DNA of 64,000 nt. Source: Caulobacter sp. X (GTDB lineage: Bacteria; Pseudomonadota; Alphaproteobacteria; Caulobacterales; Caulobacteraceae). Position numbers and translations under genes: made by a program. The stretch covers positions 1 through 64,000 of the forward strand of contig NZ_PEGF01000003.1 in the NCBI RefSeq assembly GCF_002742635.1, in the 5' to 3' direction. How positions within the stretch are numbered: position 1 is the first letter of the stretch; every line of letters starts with the position of its first letter. The notes under the pieces are model-generated. The model saw only the letters and a list, made by a program, of their open reading frames with translations, had not been told where the DNA came from and made no database searches. Shown piece by piece: positions 2,161-35,324 of the stretch.

Positions 2161-2745
2161 TCAGGATGGCCGCGCCGCGTTGTATTTTTCCGCGATGAGC
2201 CAGAACCAGTCTATGTCGAGGTCGGATAGTCTGGCTGTCTCGGTAATGGCGTCTTCCGCGCGGTTGAAGATCGCGTAGCAGGTCTCGAAGGGATCGTGGC
2301 GAGAACTGTAAGCAATGCCGTCGTATCGCGCCGGATGATCGTACAACGCTTTTGCCCAGTCTTGTGCGACGTCATAGGGTACGTCACCGTGAGTGACGGT
2401 GGCCGTCGCACCGAGAATTGCCAGGCCCGGCCCGTCCATATGCGCGAGCGTGAGCGGGCGCCCCACCTCTAGCTGGACATAGCCCTTGGACTGCACGAGC
2501 GCCATGTCGACCATCCGGCGCCCAGGCGTCCGGAGGAAGGTTTCGACAAATCCGCCGTCCGGGTGTTCAGCCGCGTACAGGGCCCCGAAGCTTGCGTCAG
2601 GCGCGTTGAACCGGCTTGTGGGACGGGTGTCGAAGAAGATCGGCTCAAAGGGCTTTGTGTAGAACCGGTGCAGGATCACGCCGCGCTCGAGCGTGATCAG
2701 CCTCGCAGTGCGTGAGGAAAGATCCGTCGGCGGTGGCGGCGTCAC
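2161..2745 (-). CDS. RES-domain toxin (NAD+-degrading)
   Basis: 194 residues. The family signature residues are visible: Arg27 (HRFY), Arg45 (SRFNAP), Tyr57 (ALYAAE), Glu68 (FVETFLR) and the serine in YDGIAYSS near 147. RES toxins act as NAD+ phosphorylases or glycohydrolases and stop growth when unopposed. Its start codon overlaps the stop of the upstream antitoxin gene by four bases, the usual antitoxin-first layout, which supports translational coupling. Confidence 0.85.
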   Translation of the reverse strand: MTPPPPTDLSSRTARLITLERGVILHRFYTKPFEPIFFDTRPTSRFNAPDASFGALYAAEHPDGGFVETFLRTPGRRMVDMALVQSKGYVQLEVGRPLTLAHMDGPGLAILGATATVTHGDVPYDVAQDWAKALYDHPARYDGIAYSSRHDPFETCYAIFNRAEDAITETARLSDLDIDWFWLIAEKYNAARPS

Positions 2746-3440
2746 GCGCTACGAACACCAGACTGCATGGCCGCCTGAACCACCTTCGAGATCTCGCCAC
2801 GCTTCAATAGGTCGGCGGGCTTGGCGTTCGACAGAAGGTCGTGCGGGTTGACCAGGAAATTGAGCACCGACCATGGACTGCTGAAGCCGAGCGCGGCCTG
2901 AACATCTTTCAGTCCACGCAACGGCGTGCCGTCATCACCAAACTGCACGACGGGGAAACGACGCTTCCCGCTGGGTCCCGGGACGGCAAGCAGCGATCCC
3001 TCGTTGACCTTCTTGTCGATGGCCTGGCGGCTCACGCCTCTCAGGAGCTTTCGGACGGTCTCGATATCGAACGCGCCGCCAGACTCCTTCAGGTCGAGTT
3101 CGGAAAACTCCACGCCCCGCAAAATGGCCCGCGCTTTTGGTCCCGGCTCGAAAGCTTCAGGCTTTAGCCGAGTTTTCGCTAACTTCCCGACCCGAATGGC
3201 TTCCGCTCGCGTGCCAGCAGTCGTGAAAATCCTGCTGCCAAACGCGCTCTTCCAAACCTTATATCCTTGGTGGCGCAGCTCTGTCTCGGCGTCTGCGGTC
3301 TTCGGAATAACCAGAAGTTCGGTCTGTGGCGGTAAGCTCGCCAACTTAGTAGGGGCCACGACAAACGCGTTGAATTGGCCGAACACGCCAGTGGTGGCGG
3401 CGCGCGAAACGCCTTTCGGACGAGGGGCGAGCTTGCTCAT
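2742..3440 (-). CDS. Xre/MbcA/ParS-type antitoxin of the RES toxin
   Basis: 232 residues. The C-terminal 60 residues (GLKDVQAALGFSSPWSVLNFLVNPHDLL...PADLLKRGE) match the toxin-binding domain (DUF2384-like) of antitoxins paired with RES proteins. The N-terminal part is longer than usual and contains a HTH-like stretch (IETVRKLLRGVSRQAIDKKVNEG near 125-147). It overlaps the toxin gene by four bases. Such antitoxins normally repress their own promoter; the region 3441-3532 is shared with a divergent gene. Confidence 0.75.
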   Translation of the reverse strand: MSKLAPRPKGVSRAATTGVFGQFNAFVVAPTKLASLPPQTELLVIPKTADAETELRHQGYKVWKSAFGSRIFTTAGTRAEAIRVGKLAKTRLKPEAFEPGPKARAILRGVEFSELDLKESGGAFDIETVRKLLRGVSRQAIDKKVNEGSLLAVPGPSGKRRFPVVQFGDDGTPLRGLKDVQAALGFSSPWSVLNFLVNPHDLLSNAKPADLLKRGEISKVVQAAMQSGVRSA

Positions 3441-15390: not shown

Positions 15391-16761
15391 TCAGTCCGCC
15401 GCGTCGGTGATCCATGCGATTCCGTCCAAGGGGGCCAGAGCGCGGATCATTCGCTCGCGGTCCGCGCTCGCCGGCGTCAGCCAGCGCGACGCGGCCGCGC
15501 CAATCCGATCGTGTTCGAGCGCGATCGTAGCGGCGAGCAGGCCCCAGACCCTATCGAAGACAAGGGCCAAGCGGTCGATCTCGAACCCGACCATCGCGCC
15601 GACGCCAGGGTCGAGCGCGCTGATCAAGCCGATGACCTCGGCGCGTCGCACGCGAGGATGGGGATGATCGCGCCCGCCCAGGAAGGCGGCGGCTTTCAGT
15701 TGGGCAAGGTCGCTCGCCTGCTCCCGGGCGAAGAGCTCGGGGCTGACGATCTGGGTCAGCATGCGGTGGACGGTGTCGAGCGCCAGCAAGAAGGCGCCCG
15801 CGCCCGTCACGTTGCCCGGCAGGCTGTTGGTTCGCGATCCGTAGACGGCCACGCGGATCATCGCGTAGGCGTCGGCGTCGGACTCCTCGCGCTGGTGACG
15901 ATAGGTCTGTCGCAGCCGCTCGGGGTCGAGGGTCAACCCGGCGCGAAGGCAAGCCTCCGCGAGGGCGGCGGCCATGCGCTCGGCGTCGCGCTCAACCGAC
16001 TCGTGGTTGACCGCTGTGGGGTTGCCGCAGCCGACTTCCAGGTGCAGCGCCTCATGCCAGAGCACGAACGCGATGAACGATTGGAAAAGCGTGTCGGCAT
16101 AACGCTCGACCAGGCTGGATCCGGCCAGCCGCGGGGAGGGGAAGTCGACCTCGCCCTGGGTGATGTAGTCGATGAAGAGCTGGGCGATGTCGAAACACGG
16201 GCCCTCGTCGGCCGCGACGAAGGCCTCGACCTGCTGTTTGGTGCGCACGAGGATTGCGCCGTCGCGCTCGAAGAACAACAAAGGCGTGACGAGGGCGCAA
16301 AGCCGGCGGGCCAGCCGGACGAGGCCTTCCTCCACAACGATGGCGCCGCGGTCGCCGAGCGGCACGGCCATGGCGTTGAAGTCGCCGGTCGGGGCGGTGG
16401 CCAGGATCACGTCCCGCACGTAGTCCGACTGGAACGGCAGGTGCACGGCGGTGTAGCGCCAGACCAATTGCAGCCAGGCCTGCAGGGCTGGGTCCTGCAA
16501 CGGCGTGGCGGGGGTGATCGAGAACATTTCCTCGAGGCTGCCGACCAGCCCGTGATCGAGGGTGACGGACGGATCCAGTCCCCAGTCGAAGTCGAGATAG
16601 CCAGGCGCCGCATCGGCGAGGCGCCTGTAGGCCTGCCGGCGTTGTTCGAAGCGCTCGGCCAAGGCGCCTTCGTCGACGCCGATCCGCGCCCAGGCCCGGG
16701 CCTGGAGCCGGGCCACGATCTCGCGAAGGTCCAGAGGCGCGGCCTGAGCGCCGATCGGCAC
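15391..16761 (-). CDS. HExxH zinc-metallopeptidase-like protein (second of a tandem pair)
   Basis: 456 residues, no signal peptide. WHEALHLEVG at 235-244 gives the HExxH zinc motif (His236, Glu237, His240). Downstream EESDADAYAM (292-301) has the spacing of the gluzincin third ligand region. It is three bases after the related gene at 16765, so co-transcribed. Overall sequence is not that of M48 or ImmA/IrrE enzymes that I know. A cytoplasmic peptidase or peptide-modifying role is an inference. Confidence 0.6.
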   Translation of the reverse strand: MPIGAQAAPLDLREIVARLQARAWARIGVDEGALAERFEQRRQAYRRLADAAPGYLDFDWGLDPSVTLDHGLVGSLEEMFSITPATPLQDPALQAWLQLVWRYTAVHLPFQSDYVRDVILATAPTGDFNAMAVPLGDRGAIVVEEGLVRLARRLCALVTPLLFFERDGAILVRTKQQVEAFVAADEGPCFDIAQLFIDYITQGEVDFPSPRLAGSSLVERYADTLFQSFIAFVLWHEALHLEVGCGNPTAVNHESVERDAERMAAALAEACLRAGLTLDPERLRQTYRHQREESDADAYAMIRVAVYGSRTNSLPGNVTGAGAFLLALDTVHRMLTQIVSPELFAREQASDLAQLKAAAFLGGRDHPHPRVRRAEVIGLISALDPGVGAMVGFEIDRLALVFDRVWGLLAATIALEHDRIGAAASRWLTPASADRERMIRALAPLDGIAWITDAAD

Positions 16762-16764
16762 GGC

Positions 16765-18036
16765 TCAGAGCTCCGCGTAGGTCGGCCGGGGCGCGTCTCT
16801 ATAGACAGCCAGCGCCTCGTGGAAGCGCGGGTGCACGCCGGCGTGGCCCAGGCGCACGAGAGCGGGGAAGGCGTTCATGAACAGCTTGTCGAACATCAGG
16901 TCGATGGCGTTGGCGAACGTCGCCGCCGGCCCCTCATAGTCACCCTTGGCGAACCAGAAAAACAAGGCCGCCGCCCGGATCCCCGGCGCGGGATGGGCGT
17001 CCTGCTCGCTGCGCCAGGCGGCGACCTCGGCGTGGACGCGGGCCCAATCTGTGCCGTGAGCGACAGTGTAGAGCGTCCGTTCGATCAGTTCGAAACTCTT
17101 GAAGGCCAGATAGGCGCCCCAGAACCCCGTCAGCGCGTCGCCGCGTTCATCCAGGGCCGCGTCGCATGCGATCTGCAACCCGAAAGCATCAGCTTCCATC
17201 TCTTGGGCCTGGGCGCGTTCCAGCGCAGTGAGCTCGCCCATATCGGCGATGGCGTCGGGAACGGCGCCGACGAGATGGCCTTGTGCGTGATGGGCGAACT
17301 CATGGGCCATGACGAAGGTCTCGAAGCCGCCGCAGAGGACAAGCGCCAGCTCCAGGACCGGCCGGGTGACCACCCATGGCGGCAGGGTGCGCACCCAGCC
17401 CTGGCCGATATAGTTGTCGAGAACGGCGGCGAACCACTGCGCCGCCTTTGGCGCCAAGGAGACCGGATCGGCCGCGCGTTCGAAGTCGAGATCGGCGTGA
17501 TCCTCGGTGGCGCTGGCGGGCGTTATCAGGACGGTCGCCACCACCTTGCTCATCATGTAGGCGAACGACCGGATCTCGTCGTCGAACAGGATCGCGATCT
17601 CGCCTTGGTCGGCGCGGATGGCGCGTGCGTTGATCTGGCCCGTCGGCAGGGTGGCCAGCAAAGGGGGCTTGCCAAGCGTGCGGCCGCGGGAGCGGTTGAG
17701 GGCGTCGACACGGCCCCACAGGCGCCGCAGGCCCTCATAGGCCCACGGATCCTGTAAGGTCAGCGGCGATCGCGGCGGCGGCCCGGCCGCCGTGTCGTTG
17801 AACTGCCCGAGGAGATGTTGGGCGTCCGAGGGCAGCTCGACCCCGACGCGACCGTAGGCTTGCGCCAGGTCGTCCAGAAAGCCGGCCGTGCTGTCGACGT
17901 CCAGCTGGCGCATCAGCCAGGGCGCGTCGACATAGGCCGCCCGCTGCAGATCGTGGACGAGCGCGGCCAGGGAAGGGGCCTGGGCCCGGCGGCCGCGCAG
18001 GTTGATGACATTGCGCTCGCTTGAGCTTTCACCCAT
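16765..18036 (-). CDS. HExxH zinc-metallopeptidase-like protein (first of a tandem pair)
   Basis: 423 residues from ATG 18036, chosen because GGAGAG precedes it; the frame is open to 18108. AHEFAHHAQGH supplies HExxH (His245, Glu246, His249) and EMEADAFG 30-odd residues later supplies the probable third ligand, as in M48-like peptidases. It shares layout with the next gene but little sequence, so they are remote paralogues. No membrane segment. It follows a dioxygenase gene by about 106 bases on the same strand. Confidence 0.6.
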   Translation of the reverse strand: MGESSSERNVINLRGRRAQAPSLAALVHDLQRAAYVDAPWLMRQLDVDSTAGFLDDLAQAYGRVGVELPSDAQHLLGQFNDTAAGPPPRSPLTLQDPWAYEGLRRLWGRVDALNRSRGRTLGKPPLLATLPTGQINARAIRADQGEIAILFDDEIRSFAYMMSKVVATVLITPASATEDHADLDFERAADPVSLAPKAAQWFAAVLDNYIGQGWVRTLPPWVVTRPVLELALVLCGGFETFVMAHEFAHHAQGHLVGAVPDAIADMGELTALERAQAQEMEADAFGLQIACDAALDERGDALTGFWGAYLAFKSFELIERTLYTVAHGTDWARVHAEVAAWRSEQDAHPAPGIRAAALFFWFAKGDYEGPAATFANAIDLMFDKLFMNAFPALVRLGHAGVHPRFHEALAVYRDAPRPTYAEL

Positions 18037-18142
18037 CACCTGCTCTCCGCCGATGGTCATGGCCAAGGTCATCACGCAAAAGGCGTGGCGCCTAGGGTTT
18101 ACGGGCAAAGGCGGTCCGCAGTCGCGAACCGCCCTGCAGAGC

Positions 18143-23752: not shown

Positions 23753-23781
23753 CCTCGCTTTAGAGCGCCGTGAGGTCGTCG

Positions 23782-25299
23782 ATGACTAGTGCCGCGCGTG
23801 CCGTCGTTTTCGAACCGGATCCCGTATCCACGCCCACGATCAACGCGGCTCCCCACAACATGGAAGCCGAGCAGGCGCTGCTCGGGATCCTGCTCTACGA
23901 CAACGCCGCCTACGAACGGCTGACCGACAGCCTGCAGGGGCGCTGCTTCTACGAGCCCTTCCACCAGCGCCTGTTCCAGGCGGTCGAGACCCATGTCCGC
24001 AAGGGCCAGCTGGCCGAGCCGATCCTGCTGGCCGACGAGTTCAAGGCCGATCCGGCGTTCCAGGAGCTGGGCGGCCTGCGCTACATGGCCGACCTGGTCG
24101 ACCGCGCCCCGCCGGCGGCCAATGCCGGCGACTATGCCCGGGTGATCTTCGACCTGTCGTTGCGCCGCGAGTTGATCCGCATCGGCGGCGACATCGCCAC
24201 GGCGGCCCAAGGCGGCAACGAGGAAAAGCGCACCGCCCGCGACCAGATCGAGGCGGCCGAACAGCAGCTCTACAGCCTGGCCGAAAGCGGCGCGGCCTCG
24301 TCCGGCTTCGTGTCGTTCGGCGACGCCCTGCGCGGCGCGGTCGAGATGACCGCCGAGGCCTACAGCCGCGACGGCGGCATGTCGGGCGTCTCGACCGATC
24401 TGATGGACCTGGACCAGAAGATCGGCGGCCTGCACCCCTCCGACTTGATCGTCCTGGCCGGTCGTCCCTCGATGGGCAAGACGGCGCTGGCGACCAACAT
24501 CGCCTTCAACATCGCCAAGAAGTACGCCTACGAGATCCAGCCTGACGGCACCAAGAAGACCGTCCAGGGCGGGGTGGTGGCCTTCTACTCGCTGGAAATG
24601 AGCGCCGAGCAGCTGGCCCTGCGTATGCTGGCCGACGCCTCCGGCGTGTCGGGCGACAAGCTCCGCAAGGGCGAGATCGACGCTTCGGAGTTCGGCCGGG
24701 TCCGCGACGCGGCCATGGAGCTGCAGGAAGCGCCCCTCTTCATCGACGCCACCGGCGGCATCTCGATCGCCAAGCTGACCGCCCGCGCCCGTCGCCTGAA
24801 GCGCCAGGTGGGCCTTGATCTGGTCGTGGTCGACTACCTCCAGCTGGTCACCGGCTCCGACCTCGGCTCGAATGCCAATCGGGTCGCCGAGGTCAGCCAG
24901 ATCACCATGGGCCTCAAGGCACTCGCCAAGGAGTTGGCCTGTCCGGTCATCGCCCTGTCGCAGTTGTCGCGAGAAGTCGAAAAGCGACCAGACAAACGAC
25001 CCCAGCTCTCCGATCTTCGGGAGTCGGGCTCGATCGAGCAGGACGCTGACATGGTCTGGTTCGTTTATCGGGAGAGCTACTACGTCGGTCGCGCCGAACC
25101 GCGCGAGGGCACACCCGAACACCTGACCTGGCGCGACGAGATGGACCGCCTACAAGGCCTGGCCGAGGTGATCATCGCCAAGCAGCGTCACGGCCCTATC
25201 GGCACCGTGCGTCTGTCGTTCGATAGTGACACCACCCGCTTCGGCAACCTTGCCCGTGACCACCACTTCGCCCAGGGCCGACAGGGGCATGACGACTAG
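23782..25299 (+). CDS. dnaB: replicative DNA helicase DnaB
   Basis: 505 residues from ATG 23782 (GAGG six bases upstream; GTG 23770 is also in frame). The N-terminal DnaG-interacting domain begins at PHNMEAEQALLGILLYDN. The RecA-like ATPase domain has Walker A GRPSMGKT (227-234), Walker B VVVDYLQL, and the conserved LSQLSREVEKR...LRESGSIEQDAD. It unwinds DNA at the fork. Usual neighbours of chromosomal dnaB (rplI, alr, radA) are absent here, so it may be a second copy tied to a mobile or plasmid-derived segment. Confidence 0.92.
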   Translation: MTSAARAVVFEPDPVSTPTINAAPHNMEAEQALLGILLYDNAAYERLTDSLQGRCFYEPFHQRLFQAVETHVRKGQLAEPILLADEFKADPAFQELGGLRYMADLVDRAPPAANAGDYARVIFDLSLRRELIRIGGDIATAAQGGNEEKRTARDQIEAAEQQLYSLAESGAASSGFVSFGDALRGAVEMTAEAYSRDGGMSGVSTDLMDLDQKIGGLHPSDLIVLAGRPSMGKTALATNIAFNIAKKYAYEIQPDGTKKTVQGGVVAFYSLEMSAEQLALRMLADASGVSGDKLRKGEIDASEFGRVRDAAMELQEAPLFIDATGGISIAKLTARARRLKRQVGLDLVVVDYLQLVTGSDLGSNANRVAEVSQITMGLKALAKELACPVIALSQLSREVEKRPDKRPQLSDLRESGSIEQDADMVWFVYRESYYVGRAEPREGTPEHLTWRDEMDRLQGLAEVIIAKQRHGPIGTVRLSFDSDTTRFGNLARDHHFAQGRQGHDD

Positions 25300-25426
25300 G
25301 CCTAGCGCTTCGGCCGGAACGAGCGCGCCTCGTTCGCGTCGGGGAGCCTTTCAGCGCCCGCGTCCCGCAGAAGATTGACCAACCTGCTGAGTCCGCCTCA
25401 ACGTCGTTGCGAACATGGAGCCACCG

Positions 25427-26272: not shown

Positions 26273-28165
26273 ATGCCCGGACCTTTGCTGCAGGCCCACG
26301 TCGACTACCTTGCCGACTTACTGGCGACTGACCGTTTAGTTTTGTTCGTTGGCGCGGGCATCTCCCGCCAAGCGATCCCCAAGAAGAACATCGACCCCAC
26401 CGACCAGATGCCGCTCTGGAAGGATCTGGCGGAGAAAGTCGCCCGTGAAACCGGCGAGGACATGTCTGCGTATAATGGCAACATCCTGGACCTGTTCGAC
26501 GCCATCAAGGCGAACCAGTCGCGGATGACACTCGAGGAGGCCGTGCGCCGCGCCATCCCCGAAAACGACTTTGATCCGTCACCAGCGCATCTCGAGCTCG
26601 CAAAGCTTCCCTGGCATACCGTTTACACGACCAATTACGACAACCTTCTATCCCGGGTGTTGGGCGAGAAGACAGTTGTAGACACCGATCAGAAGTATGA
26701 GTGGATGGCGCGGGAAGACGGGAGTCGCCCACGCCTTATCCACCTCCACGGAACATTGGACAATCTTGGAACGCTGACCGGCTCTGACTACTCTCTTTGG
26801 CCGGAGAAGAACCCGCTCGGCTATGCGAACCTAAAGAACGTCGCGCTGAACAAGACCATCCTCTTCGCCGGCTATTCATTCTCCGATCCACACCTGATGT
26901 CAGGCCTCCTGCCTTGGATCCGGACAGCGATGACCGGCCGAGGAAAGCGCCACTATGCGTGGATGTGGCGGATCAATGCCGAACAGCGGACGTTGCTCGA
27001 CAAGCGCGACGAAATCACAGCCCTTCCGATCGAAAACGACGAGGACTGGGTCAGAGCCTTCGCCCAGCTCGGCGAGGCGCTGAAACGGCGCCAGGCCATT
27101 TCGCCACCTCGGCGGAAGGAAGCGCCTCGCCCGAACGGCGCACCGACGCCCTCGTTCGATCGCGCGATCGTCAACGGCTACAAGCTCTATTTCCACCGCA
27201 CTCGTCGCCAGATGACAGTGAAGCGCCTCAGCCAGCTGACAGGGATCGACGCACGCGAAATCAACAATCTCGAACAAGTGAAAACAAAGGTCTCCGCATC
27301 GGCGAAGTGCTTTGGGTCAATACAGCGGGAAAATCTTGCTCGGCTTGAACACGCGCTGGAATGTATTGGGGAACTCGAATTTGGCCGTCCCGACGATTTT
27401 CTTGCGACCTACATTTTATACTACACGGTGAACCGGGGCGTAGTGAAGGCCTCCAGTACGACGAAGCCGCTGGACTTCAAGCCCCAAACCAAGGCGGTCG
27501 TTTTCGACTTTGGAGGCACCCTTGCCCTCTCCAGCAGCGAGCTTAGCACTTGGGAGCGCATCTGGGCTTCGGTGGGCTATCAGATAGAGGATGCCGCCGA
27601 GCTGCACCGTCAGTTTCTTGCAAAAAAGATCACTCACCAAGAGTGGTGCAATCTGACCTGCACAAAGCTACGCGAGCGAAATTTCGGCCGCAAAGAAATG
27701 AAGTCGATTATCGGCGATATATATCCTGTCGCCGGACTTCCTGAAACAATCAAGACTCTGCACGACGCCGGCATCGCCCTATATGTCGTATCAGGCTCCA
27801 TTAAGGAGATCATCTCCAACGTCATTGGAGACGCAACCTATAAGCTGTTCAGCGAGGTCAAGGCCAATGAGTTCATTTACGACGACACGGGCGTCATAAA
27901 GGAAATTCGTGGCCATCAGTTCGACTTCGAGGGCAAGGCGCATTTCATCACCAGGGTGATCGAGGAGCAGCGGTGCGCACCGCTGGAAGTCCTGTTCGTG
28001 GGCAATTCCCTAAACGATAGCTGGGCAAGCCGGTCAGGCGCGCGGACACTGTGCGTGAATCCCAGCAATGTCGATCACAGCAACACGCTTATCTGGACGG
28101 ACTATATCAAAAAGATGGTCGACCTGTCGGAGATCATGCGGTTCGTGAACGGCAAGGCCGCGTAG
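26273..28165 (+). CDS. SIR2 - helix-turn-helix - HAD phosphatase fusion protein
   Basis: 630 residues, cytoplasmic. Residues 15-270 are a SIR2-like NAD domain: VGAGIS (26-31), PLWKDLAEKV, VYTTNYDNL (117-125), LIHLHG (155-160) and FAGYSFSDPHL, the form found in defence NADases. Residues 303-345 resemble an HTH (MTVKRLSQLTGIDAREINNLEQ). Residues 408-600 are a HAD fold: nucleophile Asp412 in FDFGGTLA, VVSGS (505-509), Lys555 and GNSLND (577-582). The general-acid Asp of motif I is Gly414, so the chemistry may differ from ordinary phosphatases. Composition looks less GC-rich than its neighbours. The standalone position suggests a one-gene system; defence is an inference. Confidence 0.75.
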   Translation: MPGPLLQAHVDYLADLLATDRLVLFVGAGISRQAIPKKNIDPTDQMPLWKDLAEKVARETGEDMSAYNGNILDLFDAIKANQSRMTLEEAVRRAIPENDFDPSPAHLELAKLPWHTVYTTNYDNLLSRVLGEKTVVDTDQKYEWMAREDGSRPRLIHLHGTLDNLGTLTGSDYSLWPEKNPLGYANLKNVALNKTILFAGYSFSDPHLMSGLLPWIRTAMTGRGKRHYAWMWRINAEQRTLLDKRDEITALPIENDEDWVRAFAQLGEALKRRQAISPPRRKEAPRPNGAPTPSFDRAIVNGYKLYFHRTRRQMTVKRLSQLTGIDAREINNLEQVKTKVSASAKCFGSIQRENLARLEHALECIGELEFGRPDDFLATYILYYTVNRGVVKASSTTKPLDFKPQTKAVVFDFGGTLALSSSELSTWERIWASVGYQIEDAAELHRQFLAKKITHQEWCNLTCTKLRERNFGRKEMKSIIGDIYPVAGLPETIKTLHDAGIALYVVSGSIKEIISNVIGDATYKLFSEVKANEFIYDDTGVIKEIRGHQFDFEGKAHFITRVIEEQRCAPLEVLFVGNSLNDSWASRSGARTLCVNPSNVDHSNTLIWTDYIKKMVDLSEIMRFVNGKAA

Positions 28166-28354
28166 CGTAATTCAAGAACCGACGGCCGACCCGAGCGTAT
28201 TGCCCCTCGAAGGCCAGTACGTATTATTTCCGATAATGTTTATTAGACGCAAAATACGTGTAGTCGCCATTTAGTAATGTCACCGGCGTGCCTGTTAGAA
28301 ATGGCACCCTCCCGCATTTTGCGAGGGAGGCCCTCCAAAGTGGCGTTGCACTTC

Positions 28355-28807
28355 ATGAGCGACAAGGAGCTTAGCCGAGTCGAGATCCTGCGCGATCTGA
28401 CGGCCGGACGGCTGACGGTTTCGGCGGCCAGCGAGCTGATGGGCCTGGAGCGCCGCCAGGTGCTGCGGTTGTCGAAGGCCTGCCAGGAGCAAGGCGCGAC
28501 GGCCCTCATCTCCAAGAAGCGCGGCCGGGCCAGCAACCGGCAGACGCCCACGGCGATCAAGGGCCAGGCCCTGGAGCTGATCAAGGCGCGCTACACGGAT
28601 TTCGGTCCGACGCTGGCCGCCGAGAAGCTGCGCGAGGTCCACGGCATCGTCGTCGGCCGCGAGACGCTGCGGCTGTGGATGCTCGACGCCGGCCTCTGGG
28701 CGGATCGCGTGAAGCGCCGCGGCCAGGTTTACCAGCCGCGCTATCGGCGCGAGTGCGTCGGCGAGCTGGTCCAAGTCGACGGCTCTGAGCACTGGTGGTT
28801 CGAGGAT
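28355..28807 (+). pseudogene. ISNCY-type transposase, truncated
   Basis: From ATG 28355 (MSDKELSRVEILRDLTAGRL) the frame reads the family's double HTH region and stops being homologous after VDGSEHWWFED at about 28805, where an IS21-like end has cut it. The catalytic domain beyond the first aspartate region is missing. The left end, with GAGGG-type repeats around 28309-28335, is still present upstream. Confidence 0.65.
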
Positions 28808-28930
28808 CTCCACCACCAACATCCCGATCTCGACCGCCCGGTTGAACCAAGCCGCCGTGCCTAAACCATCGGAATGAGGGGTCCCTTTTAGGCCCCTATC
28901 ACCCCGCTAAGGGGGTCCTTCTTCCACGCC
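28808..28930 (-). mobile_element. remnant of an IS21-family end with the first codons of istA
   Basis: On the minus strand an ATG at 28822 starts MLVVE, the usual first residues of IstA, and is cut off at the junction with the ISNCY transposase. The 100 bases upstream of that ATG carry the repeated GGGGTCC/AAGGG(G)TCC blocks (near 28878 and 28911) typical of IS21 left ends. Only this end remains. Confidence 0.45.
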
Positions 28931-29275: not shown

Positions 29276-31507
29276 ATGGACATGAAAAAATATCCTAGCT
29301 TAGTGAAATGCTTGACGACCTCAGCTTTCGCGCTTCACATTTCATTTGTCAGCGAAGCAGCGTTCGCGCAGGCGGCTACGCCTGCCAGCGTTCAGTTGAA
29401 TTTAGATATGAGCCGCTCCGTCGGCGGCGTGAATACCTTATCGCGCGAGAAATACATCAACGTGCACGCAATCAATTCCGATCTTGATTGGTGGGGCGGC
29501 AACGGTCAAAGTCTAAATCAGCCCAATTTGATAGACGACTACCTGACCGATTTCGTCAAAGGAAATGACGTCTACTTCGGACGCGACAGTGGCGGGATCG
29601 GCTATGAAGTGAGCATCACGCCGCAATCTGCCACTCCGGGATATGCCGATCTCGCCTGGATGGTCAACACTCCCGCCACTCCCGCCACTCCCGCGGGCGC
29701 GAAGTCTCCTGCGAACAACTATAAGAATTACGGTTACCAGACGGCCGCGCATAAGGCCATTGTCGAAAGCAATGAGTTCGAGAAGCGCATGAACTCGTGG
29801 ATCTTGACCATGATCCCCGAGAAATTCTATCCTGTTGGAGGCAAGGTTACCGGCGCAAAGTGTACAACCACCGGATCATGGTCGTTCTCGACCGGAGATT
29901 CCGCCACTGAACCCTACGGCACGGCCACCGGGAAGTTCGCCGGCAAATATCTGGCGAATTACTTCATCGGAGGTTCCATCACCAACCCAAGCACTGGCCA
30001 TCCGCGGCCAACATTTGTCGAAGGTGTTAACGAGCCGATCTACAACCTTGTAGACATTGCCGTTCCAAATACAGGCTCTACCTTCGGCGATTGCGCAAAG
30101 AAGGCGACGTACGACGATATCTTCAAGTACCACACCAACGTGCGGGCTGAAATCAACGCTCTCAACTCGGGAACCAAGACGGTAAAATTCGGGGGATATA
30201 CGCCCGCGTTCCCGGATCTGGAGGAATTCGAGAAATATCCGGCAGACCGTACGAGCGGCAGCACGGCCGTCTTTGCGAAATGGAATGCGCGCGATGCGCT
30301 CTGGATGAGCAACCATGCCAAGAATATGGATTTCCTGTCCCTGCACATCTACGACTTCGACGGTATCAAGTTTGACGGCGTCACCACCCGCCGGATCAAT
30401 CACAAGGGCAACAACATCGAGGCGATCCTCGACACTTACGACAGTGCCCAGCTGTTCGCGTCGGGCGTGCTCAAACCTATTGTGATTTCTGAATTTGGCG
30501 GCCGCCTGCATACTGCGGAAGGAAGCGCATGGACCCCCCAGCGCGACTGGTCGTACATCAAGGCCATGAACTCATTGATGATCCAGTTCATGCAGCGCCC
30601 CGATCGAATCGCGAAGGCTGTCCCGTTCGTCCCGCTGAAGGCGGAATGGGGCCGCGTTAGTCCGACGATCCCTTACCAATGGAGACTGTTCCGTCAGGAG
30701 AAGGAGGACGGAGTCAGCACGAGTTCGAAGTGGACCTACACCGAGCTCGTGAAGTTCTATAAGCAGTGGAACGGTGTGAACGGTACCCGACTGGATACCT
30801 ACGCCAACGATCAGGATATCCAGACAGACGCCTATTACGACAGCGCCAACAAGACTGTCTGGCTAATCCTCAATAACCTGGAAGAGAACGGTAAGACATT
30901 GAATCTTGCGACGGCCGGCCTCAATACCGGAAACGCAGTTTCGACCGTTGAAGTCCGTCATCTATACCCGAACACAACAACCGGCGTGCCGGTTCTTGAC
31001 GTGTATAGCAATGCGACGATCCCCGCCAGCATCGGCATTGGCGCGGAAAGCACGATTATCATGAAGATAGTTTATAACAATACCCTCTCGATTTCAAACA
31101 GCAACTCCGAGACCAAATACTATGCAACCGTGAACGGCATCACGAGCGCGCTAAAAGCGATCGCCGCCAACACTGCGATGACGTTCAACATCAACAACGT
31201 AACGACCGGGGCTAACGGCGAGGCCGTATTGCGCGTGTCCGTTGGGAGGCCGATTACCGCATCGCTGCAACCGATTGTAACCCTCAACGGAACCGCGGTG
31301 ACCGTGCCGACGGACTATCGCGGTTACGATCAAAACCGGAATGGTTCTGGCCGGTTCCGCTTCTTCGGAACGCTGGAAATCCCGGTCGCGCGGTCATTGA
31401 TCCAGCAGAACAACACCATCGTGGTGACATTTCCGGACGCCGGTGGATCAGTCAGCGCGGTTGCGTTGCAGAACCGCATCACCACCCGGGCCTTGTCGCG
31501 GCCCTGA
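29276..31507 (+). CDS. GH86-like beta-agarase / porphyranase, secreted
   Basis: 743 residues with an N-terminal signal peptide ending near AFAQA (about 32). The catalytic (beta/alpha)8 region shows the acid/base Glu253 in VEGVNEP, the family motif SLHIYDFDG (355-363) and the nucleophile Glu406 in VISEFGGR. The C-terminal 200 residues are beta-sandwich-like. GH86 enzymes cut beta-1,4 bonds inside agarose or porphyran. Start chosen at ATG 29276 with GGAG upstream. Composition is less GC-rich than the main catabolic genes, so it may have been acquired separately. A 9-bp repeat (ACTCCCGCC, three times near 29668-29694) encodes TPATPATPA. Confidence 0.75.
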   Translation: MDMKKYPSLVKCLTTSAFALHISFVSEAAFAQAATPASVQLNLDMSRSVGGVNTLSREKYINVHAINSDLDWWGGNGQSLNQPNLIDDYLTDFVKGNDVYFGRDSGGIGYEVSITPQSATPGYADLAWMVNTPATPATPAGAKSPANNYKNYGYQTAAHKAIVESNEFEKRMNSWILTMIPEKFYPVGGKVTGAKCTTTGSWSFSTGDSATEPYGTATGKFAGKYLANYFIGGSITNPSTGHPRPTFVEGVNEPIYNLVDIAVPNTGSTFGDCAKKATYDDIFKYHTNVRAEINALNSGTKTVKFGGYTPAFPDLEEFEKYPADRTSGSTAVFAKWNARDALWMSNHAKNMDFLSLHIYDFDGIKFDGVTTRRINHKGNNIEAILDTYDSAQLFASGVLKPIVISEFGGRLHTAEGSAWTPQRDWSYIKAMNSLMIQFMQRPDRIAKAVPFVPLKAEWGRVSPTIPYQWRLFRQEKEDGVSTSSKWTYTELVKFYKQWNGVNGTRLDTYANDQDIQTDAYYDSANKTVWLILNNLEENGKTLNLATAGLNTGNAVSTVEVRHLYPNTTTGVPVLDVYSNATIPASIGIGAESTIIMKIVYNNTLSISNSNSETKYYATVNGITSALKAIAANTAMTFNINNVTTGANGEAVLRVSVGRPITASLQPIVTLNGTAVTVPTDYRGYDQNRNGSGRFRFFGTLEIPVARSLIQQNNTIVVTFPDAGGSVSAVALQNRITTRALSRP

Positions 31508-31523
31508 CGAGGACGCTTTGCAC

Positions 31524-31554
31524 CCGCCGCTTGCTTGCATAGAGCAGGCGGCGG
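31524..31554 (+). terminator. hairpin after the GH86 gene
   Basis: An 11-bp stem (CCGCCGCTTGC / GCAGGCGGCGG, one G-U pair) with a nine-base loop, 17 bases after the GH86 stop codon. There is no clear T-run, so termination strength is uncertain. Confidence 0.45.
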
Positions 31555-31704
31555 ATTGCAAAACCCTCGCACTTGCGCCTTGTTGGGATTGTCGGGATAG
31601 GAGCCATGCTGTCCGGCACAGAACTGCTTCGGAATGGTCATTTCCTTAAGGCGAACACGTTGTTTGCAGCGCTGACGCGCCCGCAGATGTTTGCCGGGGT
31701 TACC

Positions 31705-31800
31705 TCATTCTTCGTCGCCCCCATCCGCAATTATGCATTTTTTGAGCAGGCGGTTCTCAAGTGTGAGATCGGCCACGCAGTCCAGAGCAGCCTCGCATAC
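31705..31800 (-). pseudogene. IS3-family OrfA C-terminal fragment
   Basis: The minus strand reads VADLTLENRLLKKCIIADGGDEE and then a stop, which is the usual C-terminus of an IS3-group OrfA. The upstream part and orfB are missing. The region 31555-31704 shows no other gene. Confidence 0.4.
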
Positions 31801-31825
31801 GAATTTAGCTAGCTCTGGATCGTAG

Positions 31826-32042
31826 ATTCCCGAGGCCATCTCGATGCTCAAGCGCAACAACTGCGGCAAGGCCCTGGCCATAGCCCGCGAGGCCCGCAAC
31901 ATCCACGGCGGCGACGGCATCTCGGGCGAGTATCACGTGATGCGCCACGCCGCGAGCCTGGAGACCGTCAACACCTACGAAGGCGCGCACGACGTCCACG
32001 CCCTGATCCTGGGCCGAGCGATCACCGGGCTCAACGCGTTCA
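31826..32042 (+). pseudogene. gcdH: 3' fragment of glutaryl-CoA dehydrogenase
   Basis: [72 protein letters not shown] is split here as [11 protein letters not shown]..., [11 protein letters not shown] and [18 protein letters not shown]: the acyl-CoA dehydrogenase C-terminus of GcdH. Only about 70 codons remain, preceded by a stop at 31823. The rest was lost at the junction with the IS3 remnant, so this is an IS-linked deletion scar. Confidence 0.7.
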
Positions 32043-32826
32043 GACGCCTTCCGAAAGGAAGGCGATCAGCGCCGTCTCGCCCTCCGAGACGACGTCCCGC
32101 CGACGTCGCATGAGGACGATATCGGTCTTCCAGGCGTCGCCGCCCAGGTCGCGGCGGGTAAACCCTGCCAGCGGCGCACGATAGCCAGCGGCAGGACGCA
32201 CAAAAGGTCCTGCCGCGAGATCGTCGACAGGGCATAGAGGATCGAGGCAGTGACGGTGTCGATCGTCGGCGCCGCCACGCGCTCGGCCCGGAAGCGCGCG
32301 AAGATGGCAGCCTCCAGCGGCACCGATCTTGGCCCAGTCAACCAGCGTCCGCCGGCGAGATCCTTCAGACGGCCCGCGCCCTCCAGGAGCGGATGCCCTG
32401 CCCGCCCAGCCACCACCCAGGTCTCCTGACCGATCACCTGGGCCAGGATCAACGCGTCGGGTGCCTCGATCGACGAGGCCACCGCCAGGTCGATCCGGCC
32501 CGCCAGCAGCGCCTGGGTGAACGACAGTTCCGGCCCCTCAGCCACTTCGATCCGCAGATTGGCGTTGGCCGCCTGGAACTCCGCCACCCGCCGCCCCACT
32601 CCCCCACCGAGGTGCTGGGGCTGAGCCCCACCACCACGGACGCGGGCCCTCGCCCCAGCAGAGCTTCGATGTCGCGCCGCAGCCGCCCGTCCTCGGCGAT
32701 AATCGTTCACGCGCTCTCCAGAAGCCGAGCACTGATACGAGTGGCAACGATGCCCTTGGGCGTCCACTCGCCCAACCAACCTCGCTTCGCGCTTTCTTGC
32801 GGCCTCGAGCGGTTTTCCTGTCATTT
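32040..32826 (-). pseudogene. LysR-family regulator, degraded
   Basis: The effector domain is recognisable (RIEVAEGPELSFTQALLAG, DLAVASSIEAPDALILAQVIG, ISRQDLLCVLPLAIVRRW). An in-frame TGA follows RLLESA near 32709, a frameshift lies in VVVGLSPSTSVG near 32600, and another near 32170 separates the last 40 codons ([19 protein letters not shown]). No intact N-terminal HTH remains. Its 3' end overlaps the gcdH fragment tail to tail, as expected for an old gcdH-lysR neighbourhood. Confidence 0.65.
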
Positions 32827-32829
32827 CGC

Positions 32830-32860
32830 AAAAAAATGCCCGGCGTCGACGACGCCGGGC
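32830..32860 (-). terminator. rho-independent terminator of the GH50 gene
   Basis: A perfect 10-bp stem (GCCCGGCGTC / GACGCCGGGC, loop GAC) is followed on the minus strand by seven Ts. It lies about 100 bases after the GH50 stop codon. Confidence 0.8.
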
Positions 32861-32962
32861 TTGCGCAGTAAGGGAGGAGAAGCGCGCAGTAAATTAGTCA
32901 GACAGACAAAACCTCAATTGCCGACCAGCTGCCAAAAGCATCAAAAACATCACTAATTCAAT

Positions 32963-35248
32963 TTACTTCGTCTTTCCATATCGACGTGAATAAAGCGTAT
33001 AATTAAATCTCTTGGCAGCGTCACGCATTTCTGGATACGGTATATCTGTGTTGGTAACCCAGCCGACATTGTAATTCTCACCGTCATAGGCGCGACCAGT
33101 CACATTGTCGTCGATATATTGAAACCAGTGAGCTCCAACCATCATCGGATTGGCGAGCACCGAGTTCATGTAGATCTCGTACATGCGGCCGCGGTCTTTC
33201 TGATCAACCGCCAGCACGAGACCAGGGTTGTAAAGCCCGGTGTCCGTTGCGCTCCCGATATGGAACTCGCCCACGATCGTTGGCCGATCAAGCTTATTGA
33301 GAAAGCCCCAAGACTCCGGGTGAAGCTCTTCACGGTAGATATTATAACTTAGAACGTCCGAATACTTTACTGCGGCCTGCGTGACTTCGCTTGGCATGCC
33401 CCATTCAGCCATTCTGACGCCCATATAGAGCTGATTTGGCAGGACTCTCCGGATCTCCTCGCGGACCGTTCGGAAGTAGGTGTCAGCATAGTCTGCGAAA
33501 AGCCACGACAGGTCCGGCTGCGCCGCCTCCGGAGCGGCGACTCTGACCCCTGCGTCAAACTCGTCCCAGGAGCCGAAGCTCGTCTTCCAAGCCGCATTCA
33601 ACGCGGCGATCGACTTGTACTTGCCCCGGAGCATGCGCGAGAACGCGGCCTTGGCCGGGCTGTCAGAGGTGGATTTCGACAGCGCATCGAGCACCGCACC
33701 ATATTGATGGGCGACGCTGTCGGTCAGGCCCCAGCTCTTCTCGTTGTCGATGAACACGCCTACGCACCACGGACTGCTCTTCACCTCACGGCCAACCTGC
33801 TCGATGGTCAGCCGAGCGCGACGCTTGAACTCGGGGTCATAGACGTCGGGCAGCGGCGCCCAATAGTCATTGCCCGACGACAGGGTCTTGTACTTGCCGA
33901 TGATCCAGCCGTTGGCGAAGTACGGCATCTGCTGGTTGTCATAGTACATCGGATCGATCCAGTTGCCGAACGAGGTCATGCCCCAGTCCTTCATCCGATC
34001 GAGCGTCACTTGCCGCCAGGTTTGCATGTAGCCGGCACCGTAGCGCCGCTGCAGATTGGCCTTGTAGAAGCTGTAGACTTCGCCGTGCTCGACGGCGCCC
34101 TGGTGCAGCGTCCGCCGATAGCCGTAGGCCTCACCGAGCGGCTCCTCATAGGTCGGCAGCCACTGAAACATGTTGCGCCGCAGGGTCGACGACAGGAACC
34201 GGGTTCCCACCGATGCGGCCGGCACCGGCACGATGTCGCGCGAGTCTTCCGGGGTCAGCTCTTCCGGATCGATCTTGCGCACAGCGGGATCGCCGAAGTC
34301 ATAGCCGGTGATGGTCTCAAGGTTGGCCATCCGCACATTGGCGATACCGCTAGAGAAGAATAGGTAGCCCTCCGGATCGACCAGCCACCACTTGCCATTG
34401 ACCTTCTCGGTCCGGAAGAAGCCGGTCGCCTTCAGCTTCGGCCCCGCCGCCCAGCCGCCAAAACGCGACCGCTCCGGCGCCCCCTTGGAGGCGGCGAGTT
34501 CGGCCAGTTCCATCTTGGCCGCCTTCTTTAGTTCGGCGTCCGAGTGGATCTTGACCGGATATTCTTCCTTGGCCGCCTGCCCCCAACGGTCGACGATCTC
34601 GGTCAGAAAGAAGGGATCGGCCGGCGGGCTCTGACGAACCCGGACGTTGTCGATGTAGAGCGTCCGTGGCGCGGTCAGCGCCTCGGTTTCGAACGAAATG
34701 CTCTTGATCTGAGCCATGTTGGCCGCACGATCGCCATTCCGCCAAAAGAGCTTTTGATCCTTACTTTGCCAGCCTGGAGGATTCTCACGGAGCCCGGTGA
34801 TAACGTTGCCCTCATAGCCCGTCAGCGGCGCGTAGAACGTCACGGACGCCCCTGCTGCGATCACGCCGGTACGGCGCTGCCCTCGGCCCGAAGCGTCCGT
34901 CAGGGTGAAGAAGAACTGGGTCGAAACTGAACCGGGATTATAGATGTCGAAGGCGAGATTGACATCTCCGCGACCGGTCAGGTCCCAGGGCGTGGCCGGT
35001 GTGAGCGTCAGCGTGTTTTCAACCTTGGGGCCGTAGGTGACTTGGAGAGATTGCCGCCCCTCCGAAGCGTGCACTGCGACCATCTTGGCGTCGGCGTTCC
35101 GCCCCGTGATCTTCACTGCCCCGACGCCCTCGAAACCTTCGAGCACAGTCGCGCCACCGGCGCTAACCTGAGCGAGCACTGGGCTCGCCGAAACCAGCGC
35201 CAAGGCAGAAAGTCCCATCAACAGCGCCATTCGAGTCCGCCGAGCCAT
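32963..35248 (-). CDS. GH50 beta-agarase, secreted
   Basis: 761 residues from ATG 35248, which has GGGAGG six bases upstream; the frame is open to 35311. A signal peptide ends near ASPVLAQ. A carbohydrate-binding-like beta-sandwich (about 30-200) precedes the catalytic barrel. Family hallmarks are KWWLVDPEGYLFFSSGI, VFIDNEKSWG (acid/base Glu) and TIVGEFHIGS (nucleophile Glu). GH50 enzymes release neoagarobiose from agarose or neoagaro-oligosaccharides, complementing the GH86 enzyme. An ATTGTCGACATT operator candidate lies 80 bases upstream. Confidence 0.85.
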   Translation of the reverse strand: MARRTRMALLMGLSALALVSASPVLAQVSAGGATVLEGFEGVGAVKITGRNADAKMVAVHASEGRQSLQVTYGPKVENTLTLTPATPWDLTGRGDVNLAFDIYNPGSVSTQFFFTLTDASGRGQRRTGVIAAGASVTFYAPLTGYEGNVITGLRENPPGWQSKDQKLFWRNGDRAANMAQIKSISFETEALTAPRTLYIDNVRVRQSPPADPFFLTEIVDRWGQAAKEEYPVKIHSDAELKKAAKMELAELAASKGAPERSRFGGWAAGPKLKATGFFRTEKVNGKWWLVDPEGYLFFSSGIANVRMANLETITGYDFGDPAVRKIDPEELTPEDSRDIVPVPAASVGTRFLSSTLRRNMFQWLPTYEEPLGEAYGYRRTLHQGAVEHGEVYSFYKANLQRRYGAGYMQTWRQVTLDRMKDWGMTSFGNWIDPMYYDNQQMPYFANGWIIGKYKTLSSGNDYWAPLPDVYDPEFKRRARLTIEQVGREVKSSPWCVGVFIDNEKSWGLTDSVAHQYGAVLDALSKSTSDSPAKAAFSRMLRGKYKSIAALNAAWKTSFGSWDEFDAGVRVAAPEAAQPDLSWLFADYADTYFRTVREEIRRVLPNQLYMGVRMAEWGMPSEVTQAAVKYSDVLSYNIYREELHPESWGFLNKLDRPTIVGEFHIGSATDTGLYNPGLVLAVDQKDRGRMYEIYMNSVLANPMMVGAHWFQYIDDNVTGRAYDGENYNVGWVTNTDIPYPEMRDAAKRFNYTLYSRRYGKTK

Positions 35249-35324
35249 CTTCAACCTCCCAACCGTTTTGTTAGCGGCGTCACGCGTCGCTTTAACCCCC
35301 TTCTGGCCCAACCACTATTTATTG

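Follow-up and report, generated by a model that had tools for sequence, protein, structure and literature searches.

Within a 64,000-nucleotide stretch of a Caulobacter sp. X contig (hereafter the window) we identified a complete gene on the forward strand (26273..28165) whose 630-residue product joins a SIR2 domain of the defence type to a putative helix-turn-helix (HTH) and a HAD domain. Our favoured reading, held with a little less than even confidence, is that of a one-gene, NAD+-depleting abortive-infection protein, in which the HTH-HAD half would switch the SIR2 domain and the HAD part would sense a phosphorylated ligand. The ORF runs from an ATG through 630 codons to its stop without an internal stop, a run whose chance, calculated from the gene's own base composition, is ~7e-11. 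All motifs named in the original prediction were found in the translation, and its picture of one 630-residue chain bearing both SIR2 and HAD signatures holds: VGAGIS, TTNYD and HLHG start at residues 26, 119 (with N121) and 157 (with H159), and DFGGT, VVSGS and GNSLND at residues 412, 505 and 577, with the lysine at K555. Using a codon-bias model trained on seven other ORFs of the window, we obtained positive values in the gene frame and negative values in both other forward frames for residues 1-275, 276-400 and 401-630, the in-frame signal being weakest in the middle segment (276-400). As this bias persists in frame through all three parts, plain misassembly of the fusion was rejected. The GC content of the same parts was 59, 56.5 and 54 %, whilst upstream values were higher (67 % in dnaB, 66 % in ORF 22050 and 62 % in ORF 20745) and a porphyranase-like ORF downstream was also low (55 %). 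With codon bias in frame and lower GC across all parts, the sequence looks like one acquired gene, and the ORF is a single real coding unit.

The N-terminal part (residues 1-277; 26273..27103) was delimited as a defence NADase-type SIR2 domain by Pfam SIR2_2, an AlphaFold (AF2) model and VIA-align. SIR2_2 matched residues 116-243 (E 4.9e-20, 72.5 bits against a cut-off of 24.5), the top PADLOC profiles were Dsr2 (E 1.3e-30) and ThsA (E 1.3e-22), and sequence matches in the PDB were to ThsA, KomC and DSR2. The AF2 model, built with 15 relatives, was good across residues 11-270, save 133-150, and the fold search made with it covers residues 1-277 alone, being uninformative on the HAD part. It superimposed on ThsA 8bto with a Z of 23.5 (rmsd 2.8 over 247 residues), on DSR2 8wyc with 22.6 and on KomC 9v0g with 21.7; overall, Z was about 19-24 to ThsA, DSR2 and KomC, and about 14 to the lower-scoring Sir2 homologues 1m2j and 1ici. 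Rows less than 1 Z apart are tied, and we therefore claim no single nearest relative. N121 and H159 were identical in 19/19 relatives of a first alignment, restricted to loci with a SIR2 domain at E <1e-8 (the weaker loci L010-L016 being left out), and in 15/15 of a second (A5); G29 was invariant in both. On the strength of family and modelled fold, the SIR2 part is assigned to the defence NADase group of ThsA, DSR2 and KomC, as had originally been proposed, and is predicted to hydrolyse NAD+. Two positions depart from the relatives, namely S127 (codon 26651-26653), which is Glu in 19/19, and H157 (codon 26741-26743), which is Lys in 18/19 and His in one, and for this reason the NADase may be altered. 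For residue 127 only the 19-relative alignment counts, since the rows of A5 were picked by a pattern fixing E or S.

The neighbours of SIR2 relatives support this assignment. Among 76 ORFs lying on the same strand as such a relative and no more than 150 bp from it (loci L032-L160), 12 matched ThsB_TIR and seven TIR_2 (possibly overlapping sets), four matched Methylase_S, four phage integrase and three N6_N4_Mtase, with single matches to AbiEii, Fic and Cas5. These matches link the SIR2 type to defence, in line with the earlier proposal, and argue against a housekeeping role for it. No HAD family was present among the 25 of 43 neighbour families listed, which makes the pairing of SIR2 with HAD unusual. 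Within the window, PADLOC returned one weak Lit-like match only for ten ORFs (2.1-25.8 kb, all upstream), Pfam found no TIR or HAM1 type in twenty ORFs up to 35.3 kb, and no clear defence gene or defence island was seen among the ORFs scanned to that point. The lack of an island among these ORFs would suit a metabolic or regulatory NAD enzyme without a defence role. We nevertheless regard such an enzyme as very improbable, since the SIR2 subgroup is of the defence type, as are some of the genes next to its relatives, and since no protein match at E 1e-12 occurs in any of the other 74 genomes belonging to the genus.

Beyond the SIR2 domain, a linker that is proline/arginine-rich in translation and without a Pfam match (residues 278-301; 27104..27175) leads into a possible HTH of the XRE/Cro type (residues about 302-342; 27176..27298). 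HTH_19 matched here with an E of 0.015 in the whole protein and of 0.0041 when residues 281-406 were searched alone, HTH_26, HTH_25 and HTH_31 matched the same site, and the PADLOC RmrA profile touches residues 301-340 (E 0.0015). The initial description of the middle segment as HTH-like is less well supported than that of the SIR2 and HAD parts, as the four models agree on one site and all lie below the Pfam cut-off; a putative XRE-type HTH at residues ~302-342 is plausible. Such a domain, on a contig stretch bearing IS, Tn3 and integrase genes and a RES-domain ORF, might belong to a toxin with a built-in antitoxin, whose HTH would repress its own promoter, whose HTH-HAD half would block the SIR2 domain and whose gene would stabilize the element that carries it. 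Operator and promoter scans upstream of the gene yielded nothing above chance level, with no convincing palindrome or promoter, the HTH is below threshold, and the HAD domain would be left unexplained; we hold this alternative to be unlikely.

The C-terminal domain (residues 407-588; 27491..28036) was recognized by Pfam, by TIGR01491 and by alignment as a HAD domain resembling HAD-IB. Three Pfam models lay above their cut-offs, PF00702 (Hydrolase; residues 407-585, E 2.7e-10), PF12710 (residues 409-582, E 3.2e-9) and PF13419; the profile check recommended with the original prediction thereby recovered both the SIR2 and the HAD domain above cut-off. TIGR01491 of NCBIfam scored 40.5 bits (E 2.3e-10), below its cut-off of 151.9, and the phosphoserine phosphatase 1f5s matched the HAD part with an E of 4.9e-5, the closest enzymes by sequence thus appearing to be of the phosphoserine-phosphatase-like HAD-IB group. 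We aligned the domain with 1f5s, a haloarchaeal HAD-IB protein, with which it has a cap-region 'QEWC' in common, and an Acinetobacter HAD. All three share D412, K555 and D582 with the domain and have Ser or Thr opposite S507, whilst the second motif-I Asp, present in 3/3, is Gly414 here. As such, the domain bears the marks of the HAD superfamily (profiles above cut-off, D412, S507, K555 and D582) and lacks that of the DxD class, in which the second motif-I Asp is the general acid/base; a HAD fold with Asp412 kept and Gly414 in place of the acid is what had been described at the outset. In motif IV, Asn578 replaces the first Asp; this is no sign of inactivity, as another phosphoserine phosphatase, 5it4, likewise has Asn at this position. 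For residues 281-630, AlphaFold run on the single sequence gave a poor model (mean pLDDT 33.8).

Some active HADs do without the Asp at +2. Moreover, motif mutants of the CARF-HAD effector BbChp keep most of their toxicity, according to an excerpt of PMC12715507, and on both counts Gly414 is no proof of lost activity. An active phosphatase could serve as a second effector, acting on a nucleotide or on phosphorylated ADP-ribose and so blocking the rebuilding of NAD+ by phages, or could deepen nucleotide loss, and the retained nucleophile, motif II Ser, Lys and last motif IV Asp would accord with this. So would several precedents in excerpts of the literature: CARF-HAD effectors dephosphorylate ATP and dATP (PMC12715507), the defence system DS-9 includes a predicted HAD phosphatase gene (PMC13092281), NARP1 works through ADPR-PP (PMC12774641), and some phages have a sirtuin gene adjoining a HAD phosphatase gene (PMC9503650, a review), the last being the nearest published arrangement among the sources consulted. 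The 2026 study cited for DS-9 (PMC13092281) states that it is still unknown what the HAD phosphatase domain does in defence. With the general acid/base Asp replaced by Gly414, and with nearest families that are phosphoserine-phosphatase-like and have no tie to ADPR-PP, we judge catalysis by the HAD part to be rather unlikely.

A search for full-length homologues, advised as a check on the fusion, returned none in the genome, plasmid, phage and viral-contig collections searched. With the full-length query, 18/199 family-level genomes matched at E 1e-3, where the only long match was the gene itself and the others were SIR2-only, HAD-only or HTH-only pieces; 13/398 phylum-level genomes matched at E 1e-10, all but the source genome (12) in the SIR2 part; and 1/75 genomes of the genus matched at E 1e-12, this being the source genome, with none in the other 74. 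Residues 285-630, searched at E 1e-3, matched 2/385 genomes of the class, the second match being weak and judged unrelated, and 0/369 in the class of genome G802, 0/249 in the order of G701 and 0/249 in the order of G813. These last three sets exclude the source genome and hence have no positive control, those of G701 and G813 hold largely the same genomes, so that their counts are not additive, and the family, phylum, genus, class and order sets overlap. Of 72,556 plasmid records, 104 matched the full query, none over 80 % of its length, and the 30 of these that were listed were all SIR2-side; residues 285-630 gave five weak HAD-side plasmid matches at E up to 1. Among 50,697 phage records there were two SIR2-side matches and none to the HTH-HAD half.

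Scans with single sequences over genome contigs and viral contigs, and HAD-led scans of viral contigs, confirmed no relative, and a 20-base pattern search found no match. A TTN[YWF]D-type pattern scan of genome contigs gave at least 586 stretches and at least 307 relatives, of which the best 80 were kept, and 49 loci came from viral contigs. Applied to all frames of 158 loci (two query copies aside), phmmer detected neither a SIR2-HTH-HAD protein nor a close relative of the C-terminal half; 110 of 137 SIR2 frames were 400-599 or 900-1,399 aa long, some being clipped by locus ends. Five fusion candidates were read by eye and dropped: L019 sits in a chemotaxis-receptor-like ORF, L014 proved to be a distinct HTH regulator that ends in a cupin-like tail, and the SIR2 proteins of L008, L015 and L025 have different C-termini. 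Searches with the HTH-HAD half brought up HADs and unrelated proteins as weak matches, and no close relative that stands alone. Rarity of the fusion in the collections searched is supported by these results, whilst 'unique' would go beyond their limited sampling. Among the papers listed from open journals with the wordings used, none showed a SIR2-HAD fusion, in keeping with the earlier remark that no such described system was known to its author.

Such rarity bears on the possibility that a KomC-like stand-alone SIR2 gene and an unrelated HTH-HAD gene were recently joined by chance, without joint function. Stand-alone SIR2 proteins of domain length exist (KomC of 264 aa; a 268-aa ORF in the same genome), a second copy of the fusion was not found, and SIR2 positions 127 and 157 are changed, all as such an event might leave them. 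The frame is nevertheless free of stops, codon bias is kept and lower GC is common to all parts, and no close stand-alone relative of the HTH-HAD half was found either, leaving a functionless fusion distinctly unlikely.

The gene is followed after ~110 bp by an apparently truncated, 195-aa ISNCY-like transposase ORF (28277..28864, + strand), identified by Pfam HTH_29, HTH_32 and HTH_28 and by an overlapping DNA match with a transposase annotated as ISNCY; to this extent, the notion that the gene stands alone among IS remnants is borne out. This ORF and one of 104 aa at 25415 are the nearest of ≥100 aa. Further upstream lies a second DnaB helicase gene (23770-25299, + strand), 93 % identical to the chromosomal dnaB, and in two other genomes of the genus (G138 and G194) an additional dnaB copy precedes a match to the 104-aa ORF. 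When 20.7-29.3 kb was compared with 60 other genomes of the genus, matches fell mainly in dnaB and IS-like stretches; the 104-aa ORF was matched in two of the 60 genomes and the SIR2 gene in none of them by this DNA search (four candidates scored per genome). The contig also carries Tn3 transposase and resolvase genes, a MerA-like gene, an integrase gene and a RES-domain gene, as well as a weak ParA-like match at C3:154585, and by its predicted gene content fits an accessory replicon. A horizontally moving gene would fit both the foreign composition and the lack of an E 1e-12 match elsewhere in the genus (74 other genomes).

Several other loci were recorded. On the reverse strand, a RES-domain ORF (2161-3440; Pfam E 4e-18) overlaps a 232-aa partner without a Pfam match, the two forming a candidate RES-type toxin-antitoxin pair; RES toxins consume NAD+. 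Also on that strand, 15391-18108 holds two tandem ORFs of ~450 aa, alike by eye and without a Pfam match at E 0.001, one of which has a weak Lit-protease match (E 0.0013). The segment 8126-15162, with a Tn3 transposase, a resolvase and a MerA-like reductase with an HMA domain, is possibly a mercury transposon, and porphyranase-like and agarase-like genes at 29276-35311 suggest the use of algal polysaccharides. Elsewhere in the genome, contig C1 has a stand-alone SIR2_2 ORF of 268 aa (Pfam E 9.2e-26) whose start is overlapped by a 185-aa ORF that is HAM1-like by eye, the two (near 2111.1-2112.5 kb, L002:932-2292) being likely a KomB-KomC (Kongming-type) pair.

In the one-gene abortive-infection protein that we tentatively favour, the SIR2 domain would cleave NAD+ once released, an activity expected from its family, fold and catalytic residues, and the HTH-HAD half would hold it off and act as a switch. 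By analogy with KomB-KomC, the HAD part would bind, more than turn over, a phosphorylated small molecule made or altered in phage infection; binding is preferred over turnover because the nucleophile Asp, motif II Ser and Lys are kept and the general acid/base Asp is lost. The HTH, the weakest step, would probably provide autoregulation, DNA binding or dimerization. A narrower version, in which the protein would be an all-in-one KomB-KomC counterpart, based on an unrelated metabolite-binding fold, with a catalytically crippled HAD sensing a phosphorylated infection metabolite and directly switching the fused SIR2 NADase, seems to us possible and somewhat doubtful, and in a conceivable variant the HAD part would strip off the phosphates that phages use to remake NAD+ from ADP-ribose. 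The changes at S127 and H157, the lack of a defence gene in the ORFs scanned and the unusual pairing with HAD count against the favoured reading. Phage defence systems repeatedly employ SIR2 NADases as executioners, and these differ mainly in what triggers them. If the reading is correct, the SIR2-joined HAD would be a new type of switch, or else an additional enzyme working on the metabolite pool that SIR2 acts on, and the protein would offer a simple system, of one gene, in which to test metabolite sensing.

Of known systems, Kongming provides the model for the proposed control of a SIR2 domain by a metabolite-binding partner fold: dITP binds KomB and thereby activates the SIR2 protein KomC (excerpt of PMC12948488), whose SIR2 fold is in common with that described here (Z 19-22). 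KomC, however, is a separate protein of 264-278 aa, whereas the SIR2 domain in the window is fused to HTH and HAD parts, and Kongming has a HAM1-type KomB neighbour, whereas the ORFs at 25415 and 28277 are not HAM1-like. ThsA 8bto is the top-scoring structural match, tied with other ThsA and some DSR2 structures, and ThsA too combines an N-terminal SIR2 domain with a C-terminal control region. Type I ThsA has a SLOG sensor and works with ThsB (excerpt of PMC12948488); for residues 281-630, a half without a usable model, Pfam gives HAD and not SLOG, and the ThsA profile matches the SIR2 end only. In Thoeris, moreover, the TIR protein ThsB lies beside ThsA, whereas no TIR match was found in the ORFs scanned here, the nearest two included. 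DSR2, which is triggered by a phage tail tube protein (excerpt of PMC11263360), gives the SIR2 part its top match in both PADLOC and NCBIfam, yet its profiles span 1,215-1,222 positions and NF041819 scored 99.1 bits against a cut-off of 1400, matching only across positions 5-220 of 1215. Membership of Thoeris, DSR2 or Kongming as such was consequently rejected, given the missing TIR neighbour, a profile score far below cut-off and a fusion without HAM1, respectively. On the HAD side, the phosphoserine phosphatase/HAD-IB enzymes (TIGR01491, 1f5s) are alike in HAD core, aligned cap region, Asp, Ser and Lys, and differ in that the protein described here has Gly414 for the second Asp, Asn578 in motif IV and a fusion to SIR2-HTH. 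No CARF match was obtained in Pfam, PADLOC and NCBIfam scans at E up to 1. The CARF-HAD effectors (Chp) of type III-A CRISPR systems likewise place a HAD domain in a defence protein (excerpt of PMC12715507), with the difference that Chp pairs a CARF sensor with a HAD effector, whereas in the present protein the likely effector is the SIR2 domain.
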